This document shows, piece after piece, positions 1,296 through 50,786 of a stretch of DNA of 64,000 nucleotides. The stretch is from Flavonifractor sp. An10 (GTDB lineage: Bacteria; Bacillota; Clostridia; Oscillospirales; Oscillospiraceae): NCBI RefSeq assembly GCF_002161215.1, contig NZ_NFMB01000006.1, positions 62,001 to 126,000 on the forward strand. The letters are read 5' to 3'. Both the position numbers and the translations under genes were made by a program. Position 1 is the stretch's first letter; each line of letters starts with the position of its first letter. Under the pieces are notes generated by a model. That model ran no database searches. It was not told the DNA's origin and saw only the letters and a list, made by a program, of their open reading frames with translations.

Positions 1296-1470
1296 CTCAA
1301 TCAGACGGCAGACGCCGTCTGATTGAAAACAGCCCGCTGCATGCAAGGCCGGGCCGCCGTCGGCGGCCCGGCCTCACACTTGCGGGCTGAGCAGTGTTTT
1401 CAGCCACGCACATGTCGCGGCTGAAAACTGCCTGCTATTTTTTCGCGCCGCAGGCGCGAACTCTGCGAGG
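1296..1470 (-). repeat. Four-hairpin structured element, copy E
   Basis: Read on the minus strand this is one of five related intergenic elements. In order it shows the conserved segment CTCGCAGAGTT (1459-1469), hairpin I (CGCGCC/GGCGCG, 1444-1458), hairpin II (1396-1428) with the conserved loop GACATGTGCG, a segment resembling CACTTCTCA, hairpin III (12 bp stem, 1347-1373) and hairpin IV (12 bp stem, 1298-1325). The stem sequences differ from the other copies but pairing is kept. It fills the gap between the convergent atoA and MocA-like genes, so hairpins III and IV may also act as terminators although no T-run follows. Confidence 0.7.
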
Positions 1471-1502
1471 CCGCCCCTGGGGGAAGGTTCCTTGACAGAC
1501 GG

Positions 1503-16595: not shown

Positions 16596-16951
16596 TACTG
16601 CTCCGGCCCCAGTTCCTGGATGGAGCGGAAGGTCAGGCGCAGGATGTGGATGGCCATATCCCGGTCTACCGGGGAGAGCTCCCGCAGGTGGCGCACCAGC
16701 CGGTCAAGGCCGGGATCCGCCGGCGTCTTGCCCCAGGCCAGCTCGTCCAGCCCCCGGTGGAACACCCGGCCCAGCTCCGCGAAGATGGACATGCTCATGC
16801 ACTTCTTTCCCTGCTCAATCTCGCTGACATACTGGGGGGTGATGTTCAGCTGTTCGGCCAGGGCCTCCCGGCTCATGTGCGCTGCCGTCCGCAGGTCGTA
16901 TACCCGCGCCCCCACATCCTTCATCATCTGCTTCTTTTCAAAATCCTCCAT
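16595..16951 (-). CDS. XRE-family helix-turn-helix regulator
   Basis: 118 residues with an N-terminal XRE/HTH_3 domain (about 12-70): the core MSREALAEQLNITPQYVSEIEQGKK is intact, with the recognition helix TPQYVSEIEQG. The C-terminal 45 residues are helical and may mediate dimerisation. Its TAA stop overlaps the ATG of the Spo0A-like regulator (TAATG), so the two regulators are coupled. The AT-rich upstream region contains a small palindrome (17009-17021) that could be its own operator. Confidence 0.88.
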   Translation of the reverse strand: MEDFEKKQMMKDVGARVYDLRTAAHMSREALAEQLNITPQYVSEIEQGKKCMSMSIFAELGRVFHRGLDELAWGKTPADPGLDRLVRHLRELSPVDRDMAIHILRLTFRSIQELGPEQ

Positions 16952-17008
16952 GGTGCCCTCCTCAATGGTTTAACTTTAGCTATAGATTGACACAACTTTG
17001 GATTTTTA

Positions 17009-17021
17009 CTATCAACGATAG
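17009..17021. promoter_or_regulatory. Possible operator palindrome upstream of the XRE gene
   Basis: CTATC-AAC-GATAG, in a locally AT-rich stretch 58 bases before the XRE start, with a second ACGAT direct repeat nearby (about 17036-17040). Position and symmetry suggest an autoregulatory site; no binding evidence. Confidence 0.35.
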
Positions 17022-17062
17022 ATGATATATTTGAAACGATAATTTCAAAACGGAAAAACAGC

Positions 17063-17322
17063 AGGCGCAGCGCCCCCGGGCGCTGCGCCTCAGCGTGTCG
17101 AAAAAGTCTCGCAGAGTTCGCGCCCGCAGGCGCGAAAAAATGGGAATCTGTTTTCTCCGGCGACATGTGCGTCGGAGAAAACACTTCTCAGGCCGCAAGT
17201 GTGGGATTTGTCCGCCTGAATCGGACAAATCCTGCGCGCGGCGGACTGCATCCTGCTCGAAAAAGTGGCAAAAGCCACTTTTTCGACAGTCTCAGGCGCA
17301 GCGCCCCCCGGGCGCTGCGCCT
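17063..17322 (+). repeat. Four-hairpin structured element, copy A, with flanking palindromes
   Basis: The element itself is 17091-17293. It contains CTCGCAGAGTT, hairpin I (17119-17134), hairpin II (17151-17181, 9 bp TTTTCTCCG/CGGAGAAAA, loop with GACATGTGCG), the linker CACTTCTCA, hairpin III (11 bp GGATTTGTCCG/CGGACAAATCC, 17204-17232) and hairpin IV (13 bp, 17257-17286). It is bracketed by two near-identical palindromes at 17063-17090 and 17294-17322 (AGGCGCAGCG...CGCTGCGCCT). Copy B at 50.5 kb is about 95 percent identical inside but has different flanking palindromes. The element occupies most of the 406-base gap between two minus-strand genes. Confidence 0.8.
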
Positions 17323-17357
17323 GCATTGCGCAAAGAGAAGTGCAAAGGGAATTTCGT

Positions 17358-18644
17358 CTATTCGGCGGAGGAGGTCTCCGCCGGGGCAGGGGTTTCGGAT
17401 TCAACTGCCGGGGTCTCGGTCTCCGCGGCGGGAGTCTCACTCTCCGCCGCGGGGGAGGCGGTGGCCTGGGCGGCCTGCTCGGCCTCCCGCTCTGCCTGCC
17501 AGGCCTGGGCCATCTCCGCCATGTTCACGTAGAAGGCGTGGGGATCCAGCGCCTCATAGGCGGGGGTGGTCTCCACCACCGCCTCGGCGATCCACTCCTC
17601 ATTGCGCTGGTTCATGGCGTAGTTGGGGTAGATGGAGGCCATGGAGTCCCGCAGCTGCTGCCGCTCCTCGTCGGTGAAGTCCTCCCGCATCAGGATGTGG
17701 TAGCCGTAGGAGGTCTCCACCGGGTCGCTGATCTCCCCCACGGCCAGGGCCTTGGCGGCGTTGACAAACTCGCTGACCAGGGCGCCGGTGCCGTCGGCCA
17801 GGTAGCCGTCGCCGTAGAAGGTGTACCCCTCCGGCATGTACAAATCGCCGTTCTCGTCCCGGCCGTCGTCGCTGCGCTGGTTCATCACCGCGTCAAACTC
17901 CGCGGCGGGGTCGGCGGCGGCGCGGATCTGGGCGAGGAGCTGGTTGGCCTCCTCCAGCACGGCGGCCTTCTGCTCGTCGGTGGCGGCGGAGCCGTCCTCG
18001 TTGGTGGGGAAGGCCAGCAGGATGTGCTTGGCCCTGGTGTAGCCGGCCTCTTCGATCATGGCGTCCAGATCGGCCTCACCGGCCTCAAACTCGCCCCGCT
18101 CCTCCAGGGCGGCCTGGAGATCCTGGGCCAGGTAGGCCACGCTGTTGAGCTTGCGGAAGGCCGCGTCGCTGATGCACTGCTGATCCAGGTACTCCTGGTA
18201 GGTCATGCCGTAGTAGGTGTCCAGGTTCTGGGTCAGGGTCTCCAGCTCGGTGTCCATGGCGTCCTCGTCCTCCTGGCTGAGGGTGATGCCCTCGGCGGCG
18301 GCATGGTTGGCCACGGTGGTGTAGAGAATGCTGGTGTTCAGGGCGTCCTCACGCAGGTACTCCGCCGTGGGGGTGCCGTTGATCTCCTCCTCCCAGGCGT
18401 TGTCGTCGGTCAGATAGCCGCTCTGCTTGGCGGCGGCCACGCTCTGGAGCAGCCAGAACAGGTACTCGTCGGCGGTGACCTCGGTGCCGTCCACGGTGAA
18501 GAGCACCGTGTCCCGGGAGATGCCGGCGGCCTGGTAGGCGATGTCGTCGGGATCGGCCTGGGGCGCCTCGGGGGCGCAGGCGGACAGCCCCGCCAGCAGC
18601 ACCGCGCCGCACACTCCGGCGCACAAGAGACGGTTCAGTTTCAT
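17358..18644 (-). CDS. PrsA-like peptidyl-prolyl isomerase/foldase lipoprotein
   Basis: 428 residues. A lipoprotein signal (MKLNRLLCAGVCGAVLLAG, lipobox LSAC ending at about residue 23) is followed by a SurA/PrsA N-terminal helical domain and a parvulin-type rotamase domain at about 205-330, visible as TRAKHILLAFPTNE near its start and GEISDPVETSYGYHILMRED near its end. The last 45 residues are a Thr/Glu/Ala/Pro-rich low-complexity tail built on SETPAAE/TETPAVE units. It should act outside the membrane in folding exported proteins. It is a single-gene unit with the four-hairpin element A just past its stop. Confidence 0.85.
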   Translation of the reverse strand: MKLNRLLCAGVCGAVLLAGLSACAPEAPQADPDDIAYQAAGISRDTVLFTVDGTEVTADEYLFWLLQSVAAAKQSGYLTDDNAWEEEINGTPTAEYLREDALNTSILYTTVANHAAAEGITLSQEDEDAMDTELETLTQNLDTYYGMTYQEYLDQQCISDAAFRKLNSVAYLAQDLQAALEERGEFEAGEADLDAMIEEAGYTRAKHILLAFPTNEDGSAATDEQKAAVLEEANQLLAQIRAAADPAAEFDAVMNQRSDDGRDENGDLYMPEGYTFYGDGYLADGTGALVSEFVNAAKALAVGEISDPVETSYGYHILMREDFTDEERQQLRDSMASIYPNYAMNQRNEEWIAEAVVETTPAYEALDPHAFYVNMAEMAQAWQAEREAEQAAQATASPAAESETPAAETETPAVESETPAPAETSSAE

Positions 18645-22827: not shown

Positions 22828-24978
22828 ATGTCAACCATCATCAAGCACAAGGAATTTACCAACCGCCATGTCTACAAGACCGAGGTGGCGGGCCGCCCCC
22901 TGACCATCGACGTGGGCAAGGTGGCCGAGCTGGCCTCCGCCTCCGCCATGGTGACCTACGGCGAGACCACCGTGCTGGTGGCCGTCACCGTGGCCCCCCG
23001 TCCCCGGGACGGGGTGGACTTCTTCCCTCTGAGCGTGGACTTTGAGGAGAAGCTGTACGCCGTGGGCCGCATCCCCGGCTCCTTCATGCGCCGGGAGGGG
23101 CAGCCCTCCCTGCCCGCCGTGCTGGCCAGCCGGGTGATCGACCGCTCCATCCGCCCCCTGTTCCCCTACGACTTCCGCAACGACGTGGTGGTCACCGCCA
23201 CCGTCATGAGCGTGGATCGTGACTGCTCCCCCGAGGTGACCGCCATGATCGGCGTGTCCGCCTGCCTGGCCTATTCCTGCATCCCCTGGGCCGGCCCCAT
23301 CGGCTGCCTGGAGGTGGGCTATGTGGACGGCCAGATCGTCATGAACCCCACCAACGAGCAGAAGCACGCCTCCCAGCTGGATCTGACCGTGGCCGCCACC
23401 GAGAAGAAGGTCATCATGATCGAGGCCGGCGCCAAGGAGATCCCCGACGACATCATGTATGAGGCCATTGTGAAGGCCCACGAGGAGATCAAGGCCCAGG
23501 TGGCCTTCATCAACTCCATCGTGGCCGAGATCGGCAAGGAGAAGATGACCTACGACCACGCCGACTTCGACCAGGAGCTCTTCGACAAGATCGTGGAGGC
23601 CACCATGGACGAGGCCAAGGCCGCCATGGACACCGACGACAAGAACGTCCGGGAGGAGCGCTGGAACGCCCTCATCGAGCACTGGCACGAGCTCTTCCTG
23701 GAGGACTATCCCGAGATGGACAAGTACCTGGAGGAGATCACCTACAAGTTCCAGAAGAAGATCGTCAAGGCCTGGCTGCTGGAGGGCCACCGTGTGGACG
23801 GCCGCCAGAAGAACGAGATCCGCCCCCTGGCCGCCGAGGTGGGCGTCCTGCCCCGGGTGCACGGCTCCGGCCTGTTCACCCGCGGCCAGACCCAGGTGCT
23901 CTCCATCTGCACCCTGAACACCCTCTCCGCCTCCCAGAAGCTGGACACCATCTGGGAGGAGGAGGAGAAGCGGTATATGCACCACTACAACTTCCCCGCC
24001 TACTCCACCGGCGAGGCCCGGGCCGCCCGCTCCACCAACCGCCGGGAGAAGGGCCACGGCGCCCTGGCCGAGCGGGCCCTGGAGCCGGTGATCCCCCCCG
24101 TGGAGGAGTTCCCCTACGCCATCCGGGTGGTGTCTGAGGTGCTGAGCTCCAACGGCTCCACCTCCCAGGGCTCCATCTGCGGCTCCACCCTGGCCCTGAT
24201 GGACGCCGGCGTGCCCATCTCCGCCCCCGTGGCCGGCATCTCCTGCGGCCTGATCCAGGACGACGACGGCTCCTTCCAGACCTTCATCGACATCCAGGGC
24301 GTGGAGGACTTCCACGGCGAGATGGACTTCAAGGTGGCCGGCACCAAGGCCGGCATCACCGCCATCCAGATGGACATCAAGAACGACGGCCTGAGCCACG
24401 AGATCATCAAGGAGGCCCTGGAGATCACCAAGGATGCCCGCTACGCCATCCTGGACGAGATCATGCTGCCCTGCATCTCCGCCCCCCGGCCCGACGTGGC
24501 CGACACCGCCCCCAAGATGGTGAAGATGAAGATCGACGTGGACAAGATCCGCGAGGTCATCGGCTCCGGCGGCAAGGTCATCCAGAAGATCTGCGCAGAC
24601 ACCGGCGCCAAGATCGACATCGAGGACGACGGCACCATCTACATCGCGGGCACCGACAAGGCCTCCTGCGACGCGGCCAAGAAGACCATCGAGACCATCG
24701 TGTTCGTGCCCGAGGTGGGGCAGCTGTACTACGGCAAGGTGGTGCGCATCCTCCAGTTCGGCGCCTTCGTGGAGCTGGCCCCCGGCAAGGACGGCATGGT
24801 GCACATCTCCAAGCTGGCCGACCACCGTGTCAACAAGGTGGAGGACGTGGTCAACATCGGCGACATGATCTGGGTCAAGGTCACCGACATCGACGAGAAG
24901 GGCCGGGTCAACCTGTCCTACAAGGACGCCCTCAAGGAGATCAAGGCCAAAAAGGCCGCCGGCGAAATGGTGAAATAA
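22828..24978 (+). CDS. pnp: Polyribonucleotide nucleotidyltransferase (PNPase)
   Basis: 716 residues, normal for PNPase, from the ATG with AAAGGAGG upstream. Two RNase PH-like domains (about 10-140 and 325-545) flank a helical domain; then a KH domain (about 560-620, with IREVIGSGGKVIQKI) and an S1 domain (about 628-700, GQLYYGKVVRILQFGAFVEL). The basic motif FRRT-like region and phosphate-binding SSNGSTSQGSICGSTLALMD (about 434-453) are present. It degrades RNA 3' to 5' using phosphate. A stem-loop leader precedes it, and the structured element D plus a strong terminator follow. Confidence 0.97.
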   Translation: MSTIIKHKEFTNRHVYKTEVAGRPLTIDVGKVAELASASAMVTYGETTVLVAVTVAPRPRDGVDFFPLSVDFEEKLYAVGRIPGSFMRREGQPSLPAVLASRVIDRSIRPLFPYDFRNDVVVTATVMSVDRDCSPEVTAMIGVSACLAYSCIPWAGPIGCLEVGYVDGQIVMNPTNEQKHASQLDLTVAATEKKVIMIEAGAKEIPDDIMYEAIVKAHEEIKAQVAFINSIVAEIGKEKMTYDHADFDQELFDKIVEATMDEAKAAMDTDDKNVREERWNALIEHWHELFLEDYPEMDKYLEEITYKFQKKIVKAWLLEGHRVDGRQKNEIRPLAAEVGVLPRVHGSGLFTRGQTQVLSICTLNTLSASQKLDTIWEEEEKRYMHHYNFPAYSTGEARAARSTNRREKGHGALAERALEPVIPPVEEFPYAIRVVSEVLSSNGSTSQGSICGSTLALMDAGVPISAPVAGISCGLIQDDDGSFQTFIDIQGVEDFHGEMDFKVAGTKAGITAIQMDIKNDGLSHEIIKEALEITKDARYAILDEIMLPCISAPRPDVADTAPKMVKMKIDVDKIREVIGSGGKVIQKICADTGAKIDIEDDGTIYIAGTDKASCDAAKKTIETIVFVPEVGQLYYGKVVRILQFGAFVELAPGKDGMVHISKLADHRVNKVEDVVNIGDMIWVKVTDIDEKGRVNLSYKDALKEIKAKKAAGEMVK

Positions 24979-24995
24979 GCACGGCCCGGAGGGAA

Positions 24996-25173
24996 GCCTC
25001 GCAGAGTTCCCGCGGCCGCAGCCGCGGGAATCAAATGAAAATCCGTCATTTCCGGGGACATGCGCCTCGGAAATGACACTTCTCATGGCGGAGGAGACGA
25101 CAATTTCGCAAGAAATCGAGTCTCCTCCGCCATGCAACTTTTCTCGGGAAAGCGGCCTGACGCTTTCCCGAGA
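24996..25173 (+). repeat. Four-hairpin structured element, copy D
   Basis: Between the pnp stop and its terminator. CTCGCAGAGTT, then hairpin I (CCCGCGGC/GCCGCGGG, about 25009-25028), hairpin II (TCATTTCCG/CGGAAATGA, 25046-25076, loop GACATGCGC), linker CACTTCTCA, hairpin III (14 bp ATGGCGGAGGAGAC/GTCTCCTCCGCCAT, 25085-25133) and hairpin IV (12 bp CTCGGGAAAGCG/CGCTTTCCCGAG, 25143-25172). All four stems differ in sequence from copy A while pairing is kept. Its position in the 3' untranslated region of pnp means it is probably transcribed. Confidence 0.78.
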
Positions 25174-26762: not shown

Positions 26763-26809
26763 GAGCGGGCAGGGGTGGGCCGGCCGCACAGTGCAGCACA
26801 ACCCCAGAC

Positions 26810-27050
26810 AGCGTGTCGAAAAAGCGGCAAAGCCGCTTTTTCGAGAAAGGCTGCATGGCGGAAGGGGTTCGTTTTCTTGCGAAAAAGTCACCCCTTCCGC
26901 CATGAGAAGTGTCATTTCCGAGGCACATGTCCCCGGAAATGACGGATTTTGATTTTATTCCTGCGGCTGCGGCCGCAGGAACTCTGCGAGGTACTCCTTC
27001 GCAGGAGGTTTTTCGACAGTCTGAGAGGAGGACGGGAACCGTCCTCCTCT
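26810..27050 (-). repeat. Four-hairpin structured element, copy C, with adjacent palindrome
   Basis: The element is 26810-27023, read on the minus strand. CTCGCAGAGTT (about 26980-26990), hairpin I (CCTGCGGC/GCCGCAGG, about 26960-26979), hairpin II (26912-26942, TCATTTCCG/CGGAAATGA, loop GACATGTGCC), linker CACTTCTCA, hairpin III (14 bp ATGGCGGAAGGGGT/ACCCCTTCCGCCAT, 26855-26903) and hairpin IV (13 bp, 26816-26844). An extra CTCCT/AGGAG hairpin is inserted near its 5' end. A separate 12 bp palindrome AGAGGAGGACGG/CCGTCCTCCTCT (27024-27050) abuts one end. It fills the gap between the M16 peptidase gene and the next promoter. Confidence 0.78.
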
Positions 27051-50520: not shown

Positions 50521-50786
50521 AGGCGCGCCGCCCATATGGGCGGCGCGCCTTGCTCAGCGTGTCAAAAAAGTCTCGCAGAGTTTGCGCCCGCAGGCGCGAA
50601 AAAACTGGAATCTGTTTTCTCCGGCGACATGTGCGTCGGAGAAAACACTTCTCAGGCCGCAAGTGTGGGATTTGTCCGCCTGAAGCGGACAAATCCTGCG
50701 CGCGGCGGACTGCATCCTGCTCGAAAAAGCGGCTTTGCCACTTTTTCGACAGTCTCAGGCGCGCCGCCCGTATGGGCGGCGCGCCT
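50521..50786 (+). repeat. Four-hairpin structured element, copy B, with flanking palindromes
   Basis: The element is 50555-50756 and is about 95 percent identical to copy A at 17.1 kb: CTCGCAGAGTT, hairpin I, hairpin II (50615-50645, loop GACATGTGCG), CACTTCTCA, hairpin III and hairpin IV (50721-50749, with one mismatch). It is bracketed by two 30 bp near-identical palindromes, AGGCGCGCCGCCC..., at 50521-50550 and 50757-50786, which differ from those flanking copy A. It occupies the gap between two convergent genes. Confidence 0.8.

Follow-up and report, generated by a model that had tools for sequence, protein, structure and literature searches.

Within the 64,000-nucleotide stretch of the Flavonifractor sp. 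An10 genome analysed here (the window), a group of hairpins with constant loops and differing, still paired stems recurs several times, which raises the question of whether it is a structured RNA or a mobile family, the two alternatives named in the original prediction. Each alternative captures a part: covariation is strong and the sequence is mobile, but the hairpins appear not to move themselves and instead belong to a MITE-like element with IS1182-type ends. We consider it likely that this is a non-autonomous MITE-like family of ~190–260 bp, present in Oscillospiraceae and neighbouring families, with a core that is kept for its fold.

Anatomy of the copies in the window

A covariance model of the 5' half (R1) recovered all five copies reported earlier for the window (E 4e-19 to 4e-24), at 1388-1475 (minus), 17102-17190 (plus), 24992-25085 (plus), 26903-26996 (minus) and 50566-50654 (plus); two weak antisense echoes (E 0.006 and 0.05) overlap two of these copies. 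Stems, loops and compensated differences were as first described wherever we inspected them, and pnp (ORF 22828-24978, PNPase E 9.5e-274) indeed precedes the copy at 25.0 kb. Of the four-hairpin layout, the hairpins themselves stand, but in type A copies hairpin III lies within a longer stem, P3, with fixed AAGTGTG and TGCGCGC strands. The insertions at 17063-17322 and 50521-50786 further comprise inverted repeats and a terminator hairpin in duplicate. The features are as follows:

17063..17090, terminator stem-loop (AGGCGCAGCGCC...GGCGCTGCGCCT), the left of its two copies; in 11 relatives the unoccupied site has a single terminator hairpin
17091..17105, plus strand, inverted repeat CAGCGTGTCGAAAAA at the left end; a motif of this kind also bounds the IS1182-family elements L090, L082 and L323
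17108..17118, plus strand, conserved 5' motif CTCGCAGAGTT, from the alignments
GAG of CTCGCAGAGTT with CTC at 17187-17189, proposed stem P1
17117..17136, plus strand, hairpin I, variable stem with loop CGCA; pairs changed on both sides, 5/5 and 6/6 in two alignments
17150..17182, plus strand, hairpin II with a conserved G-U pair and loop GACATGTGC, from alignments and covariation
17183..17189, plus strand, conserved linker ACTTCTC
17190..17249, plus strand, stem P3 (CAGNCCGC / GCGGNCTG) around AAGTGTG, hairpin III and TGCGCGC; both-side changes in 6/7 P3 pairs and 11/16 inner pairs (type A alignment)
17257..17286, plus strand, hairpin IV TCGAAAAAGTGGC...GCCACTTTTTCGA, its 3' arm continuing into the right terminal repeat; L090 and L082 have a comparable terminal hairpin
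17279..17293, minus strand, inverted repeat at the right end, reading GAGACTGTCGAAAAA on that strand
17294..17322, terminator stem-loop, the right of its two copies
50521..50550, terminator on the left side of the 50.6 kb element, one of two copies
50553..50756, plus strand, another copy of type A, with repeats, hairpins I and II, P3/III and hairpin IV
50757..50786, terminator on the right side of the 50.6 kb element, the other copy; one hairpin at the empty sites L349-L351
24992..25173, plus strand, type B copy, situated in the pnp 3' region
26809..27023, minus strand, type B copy bounded on each side by a CAGNNTGTCGAAAAA repeat
1296..1475, minus strand, copy without clear terminal repeats (by eye)

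The attachment of the repeats to the core varies: type A has them immediately ahead of CTCGCAG, type B behind a short hairpin and type C of genome G016 behind ~50 bases, with an extra hairpin on the right. Further variants include a ~45-base insert with extra hairpins inside the hairpin II loop (GACA...TGTGC), common to at least four copies of the genome to which the window belongs (L009 at 1501-1753, L010, L011 and L012), and, in genome G060 (L119, 1419-1586), a hairpin II unit followed in tandem by a second hairpin I/II unit.

Family size and distribution

The five copies are a small sample of the family. With one copy as BLAST query, the window's own genome (G000, 3.88 Mb) gave at least 63 matches, at least 41 of them at E < 2e-12; two of these places (L014 and L024) are parts of one copy, and the figure of 41 is a lower bound because two of the five window copies are missing among the matches listed. 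The remaining matches, with E above 2e-12, are mostly reverse-strand echoes of single hairpins. A DNA-level match was found in 19 of 40 genomes, the own genome included, and R1 matched 34 of the 295 genomes sampled from the order, corresponding to 19 of 148 genera and six families. In a class-wide sample, four of 391 genomes matched, three from the own family (own genome included) and one weakly (E 3e-4).

Named carriers, among the matches listed, are Flavonifractor sp. An82, several Pseudoflavonifractor, Intestinimonas, Sporobacter termitidis and Papillibacter cinnamivorans, with Oscillibacter sp. ER4 as a further one; a scan of contigs from named genomes yielded at least 110 stretches. Two of 72,556 plasmid records matched at 34 places, 33 of which lie on one replicon, the 861 kb replicon of Vescimonas fastidiosa, where the best place overlaps no annotated feature; five of 50,697 phage records matched. 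Copy numbers per genome are lower bounds, with 11–40 candidates scored in each. The family is thus multicopy, short and dispersed, as expected of a MITE, and includes near-identical young copies.

Terminal repeats shared with IS1182-family elements

Young copies start with CAGNNTGTCGAAAAA and finish with its near reverse complement. Allowing at most one mismatch, this motif matches G000 161 times, compared with 10 for the reversed pattern, and many of these matches belong to other small palindromes. Counting the left side only, a clear repeat (at most one mismatch) is present in 118 of 279 copies and not in the other 161. Copies at L005 and L014/L024 contain, or end in, a further small palindromic element that has the same CAGCCTGTCGAAAAA ends.

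Ends of the same kind bound an autonomous insertion sequence in G000 (L090), which encodes an IS1182-family transposase (NF033551, E 1.9e-110; DDE_Tnp_1_6) and is flanked by two copies of a 36-base hairpin that differ at two bases. Comparable IS1182-family elements, with such ends and the hairpin duplication, occur in a second genome (L082 in G006) and a second genus (L323 in G040). At the level of whole genomes, no clear association was found: an IS1182 match (E <= 0.001; counted by hand from result tables) is present in 13 of 34 genomes with the element and 74 of 261 others, and the curated cut-off was passed by only 23 of 295 genomes. We therefore read the insertion sequence as a passing driver rather than a resident partner.

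Duplicated hairpins and empty sites

The two flanks of a copy match each other (score >= 30) in 102 of 279 cases and in none of 832 shuffled pairings, indicating target duplication at insertion, as in MITEs. The median length of the duplicated flanks is 30, and a stem of at least 9 bp is present in 87 of the 102 (0/102 in control windows upstream). Flank duplication is lacking in 177 of the 279 copies, and 129 have neither a clear left repeat nor a duplication.

At the corresponding loci of relatives, model R1 found no core, neither in one set of 19 loci nor in a second set of five gene-aligned loci. Of 17 loci examined for the 17.1 kb site, 11 keep the upstream motif of the left neighbour, and each of these 11 empty sites has one GC-rich hairpin (>=11 bp) where the window has two; four of them carry an extra AT-rich stem. 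For the 50.6 kb site, three relatives have one hairpin, and L348 and L352 have further small hairpins. In L352, the terminator 3' of the matched gene is directly followed by a tiny coreless hairpin with similar terminal repeats (AGGCTGTCGGAAAAGG...). At L017, the 3' end of the neighbouring gene is duplicated around a ~150-base stretch adjoining the element.

Together, the ends shared with IS1182-family elements, the doubled flanks and the single terminator at empty sites indicate that the whole element is probably MITE-like and inserted at terminators by an IS1182-type transposase, with duplication of the hairpin. We hold this mobile part of the explanation to be very likely.

Forward-strand hairpins with conserved loops, which the element has, are typical of single-stranded DNA recognition, and a REP-like single-stranded DNA element moved by an IS200/IS605 or RAYT-type (Y1) transposase would share this feature. 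REP/BIME and REPIN sequences are multicopy palindromic units at gene 3' ends, and the element is likewise multicopy, palindromic and found at gene 3' ends; it is larger, however, and has IS1182-type ends. Y1_Tnp matches show no clear association, as 15 of the 34 genomes with the element and 95 of the 261 without it have one, and the insertions have inverted repeats and duplicated flanks like those of IS1182 elements. We regard a Y1-driven origin as very improbable.

Covariation supports a conserved fold

The copy at 17108-17290 has a predicted folding energy of -103.9 kcal/mol (z = -10.5), with none of 200 shuffles as low, and 58 of 60 sampled copies have z < -3. RNAalifold, applied to a 49-copy alignment, gave 22 pairs, 13 of them with double changes. 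In 91 copies from named genome records, the structure is kept in 96.7% of cells (75.0% when shuffled), with a covariation score of 0.541 compared to 0.162 +/- 0.008 for shuffled alignments (0/500) and at most 0.109 for slid structures. For 34 type A copies (alignment A6), a hand-written structure to which P3 was added has 45 pairs, 31 with double changes; 94.3% of cells are paired (shuffled, 78.8%), and the score is 0.414, compared to 0.145 +/- 0.008 for shuffled alignments and at most 0.097 for slid structures. The A6 set was reduced from 76 to 39 non-redundant copies, of which five were then dropped by the author, L009 for its insert and L048, L125, L290 and L296 as divergent or degenerate, and this prior removal favours the structure. 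Alignments A2-A5 were fitted to model R1. The controls throughout were shuffled alignments and slid structures.

The fold is real: hairpins I, II and III and stem P3 covary far beyond the shuffled and slid controls, as expected of a structured RNA. Unpaired or wobble stretches that are conserved comprise CTCGCAGAGTT, GACATGTGC in the loop of hairpin II, ACTTCTC, AAGTGTG and TGCGCGC; for the pair just outside that loop, 203 cells have G-U, 75 a Watson-Crick pair and six something else. Stem P1 (GAG/CTC) is a proposal that constancy alone supports, since it is invariant in A6 and departs in A3 by unpaired cells only. A CACTT/AAGTG pseudoknot was rejected by eye, because CACTT varies and AAGTG hardly does.

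Rfam 15 offered no known RNA family for this fold: across the window it gave no match at gathering score, the best sub-threshold match at 17000-17400 reaching 24.9 bits against a required 70, in agreement with the view that the layout belongs to no named family.

The strong folding, the covariation in both alignments and the A4...T4 tracts of hairpin IV, present in 141 of 279 copies, would also suit a stand-alone small RNA family with hairpin IV as its own terminator and mobility as an incidental trait. Against this, conservation begins at about AAAAGCCTCGCAG, and upstream of that point copies without repeats share no visible sequence; no promoter-like site was found around the 17.1 kb copy (16900-17500); and flank duplication and ends shared with insertion sequences indicate transposition. 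The dozens of copies in G000 also speak against such a family. We judge a stand-alone small RNA improbable.

Which strand folds

If the forward strand folds as RNA, G-U pairs should be tolerated and A-C pairs should not. With the innermost pair and the conserved G-U pair set aside, hairpin II shows 45 G-U and 10 A-C cells and so behaves as a forward-strand fold; the innermost pair, counted separately, opposes the trend (2 G-U, 45 A-C). P1 has 9 G-U and 1 A-C, and hairpin I has 24 and 15. The outer stems show no strand preference: hairpins 3' of hairpin II, which were found model-free so that flanking hairpins were possibly counted, have 150 G-U, 130 A-C and 272 other mismatches. Several loops of hairpins III and IV and of the terminators appear inverted between relatives (by eye). 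The near equality of G-U and A-C, along with these inverted loops, suggests that template switching at DNA hairpins may maintain part of the pairing in the outer stems. The earlier argument that conserved loops and covarying stems point to selection on structure calls for caution: covariation is strong relative to the controls, but DNA template switching may contribute to the pairing.

Probable conservation of the core beyond transposition

These observations bear on whether the element is a MITE and nothing else, its core fold serving transposition or arising as a by-product, and its pairing due to template switching at DNA hairpins and not to selection on RNA. The strand-neutral outer stems and inverted loops favour that reading, as do the near-identical young copies. 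Exchange between copies could also keep motifs alike: at one site (L174, L291 and L304), a single species has a type A copy and two have type B, implying that copies can replace one another, and concerted evolution may keep them similar.

Other results are harder to reconcile with it, including the forward-strand bias of hairpin II. In each of four genomes of family f7, the core is present in 14 of 14 scored hits; in the same genomes there is no IS1182 match, and no repeats are visible by eye in the copies displayed. In 11 cross-genome pairs, compared at orthologous sites that lack a clear left repeat, changes affect 12 of 297 positions in the unpaired motifs and 26 of 110 in the linker before hairpin II, a difference that template switching would not explain. 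These pairs are not fully independent, as L019 was used twice, and the pair L290/L296, which lost the 5' motif, was excluded from the count for that motif. Loci L168-L277 were found by a pattern requiring the 5' motif, so that its conservation there is biased; one pattern-found locus, L250, which was also fetched by place, is among the pairs counted. In the stems at orthologous sites (15 non-independent comparisons), 46 changes were double and compensated and 28 one-sided and still paired, with 24 one-sided and broken, two double and broken, and 10 gapped. The multi-hairpin fold is retained even by copies that seem no longer to be mobile.

On balance, we find it doubtful that the element is a MITE only. 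Copies without repeats, the f7 core, constrained motifs and matched stem changes suggest, on comparative grounds, that the core probably serves a further purpose as a folded single strand, RNA near gene 3' ends being the most likely form; that such a role lies at the RNA level appears to us an evenly balanced proposition.

Placement relative to genes

After removal of 34 overlapping and 24 edge copies from 297, 239 copies could be placed, using gene calls from a home-made hexamer scorer for orientation. Of these, 109 lie between convergent and 14 between divergent genes; in co-directional gaps, the folding strand is antisense in 73 copies and sense in 43. Of 478 element sides, 334 face a gene 3' end, compared with 375 of 828 sides of other gaps of at least 100 bp, the excess that terminator targeting predicts. 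The antisense excess is present in co-directional copies without recorded duplication (49 antisense, 27 sense, p 0.015), a class that includes copies too close to a contig end for scoring, and is not clear in those with duplication (24 and 16, p 0.27). It might reflect selection against the folded strand within operon transcripts. In 87 of the 239 placeable copies, the 5'-side gene reads away, so that its read-through cannot transcribe the folding strand; many copies are thus beyond the reach of simple read-through, which counts against a general RNA role.

Two further candidates were rejected. A partner gene beside the copies was not found, as the clusters of neighbouring proteins were mostly translations through the element and the rest apparently common genes (by eye). 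Nor was there a longer, gene-bearing carrier of the core: in an all-against-all comparison of 20 loci of 3.5-7.5 kb, in which pieces below 120 bp were unlisted, shared stretches at the copies were at most 258 bp, and the longer ones in L067/L077 and L072/L077 lay away from the copies. A divergent core copy at L048 (1425-1603) lies antisense between groES-like and groEL-like genes (by eye).

Discussion

The literature covered, which was mostly open access, showed no description of this element, of IS1182 MITEs or of terminator duplication by them. The closest system is the IS1182 family itself. In the relevant passages of Wan et al. 2017 (PMC5678879), IS1272, a member of this family, replaces its target hairpin and leaves no duplication. 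Such replacement is not what we observe, as the hairpin stands on both sides of duplicated copies; duplication of the whole stem-loop is drawn as steps 3b-6b of the model in the legend of their Fig. 13. The element shares with the family, as portrayed in those passages, the kind of terminal repeat, the stem-loop targets and the duplication of a whole stem-loop seen around L090, L082 and L323. It differs in having a conserved structured core and no transposase gene that we could see.

BOX, RUP and QMITE2, MITEs with structured transcripts covered in the main text of a review (PMC10969869) in which IS1182 does not appear, are likewise short, multicopy, mostly intergenic and bounded by inverted repeats, with stable folds. 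Compared with those accounts, the present element targets a terminator and doubles it, its fold is kept by compensatory change across genera, and its core occurs with several repeat arrangements, apparently also without any. The core could be an unnamed entry in the catalogue of 3161 structured RNA candidates from human microbiomes that the main text of PMC8040213 presents; the terms 'Transpos', 'Flavonifractor' and 'Oscillibacter' are absent from that main text.

We propose that an IS1182-type transposase would act in trans on the ends of the element and would pick a hairpin as target, the joining step copying the whole hairpin to both sides. Hairpin IV would add a further hairpin at the gene end, and the core would be retained for an activity of its fold in the inserted copy, most likely exerted as RNA at or close to gene 3' ends. 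Judging from sequence comparison, we would go further only tentatively: the core may be a new class of RNA riding stem-loop-targeting transposons, older than its transposon ends and fitted with them more than once, which is delivered to gene 3' ends, doubles terminators and is kept by its hosts as a 3'-end regulatory or RNA-protecting structure.

The hosts are bacteria common in animal and human guts, across whose genomes a DDE-type transposon family apparently writes second copies of terminators. The element provides many natural cases of whole-hairpin target duplication with matching empty sites, an outcome that corresponds to one pathway in the model drawn in the legend of the IS1272 paper, and it represents a structured sequence spread by dozens to gene 3' ends. 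If the core acts as RNA, mobile DNA would here install a new regulatory RNA at many genes simultaneously.
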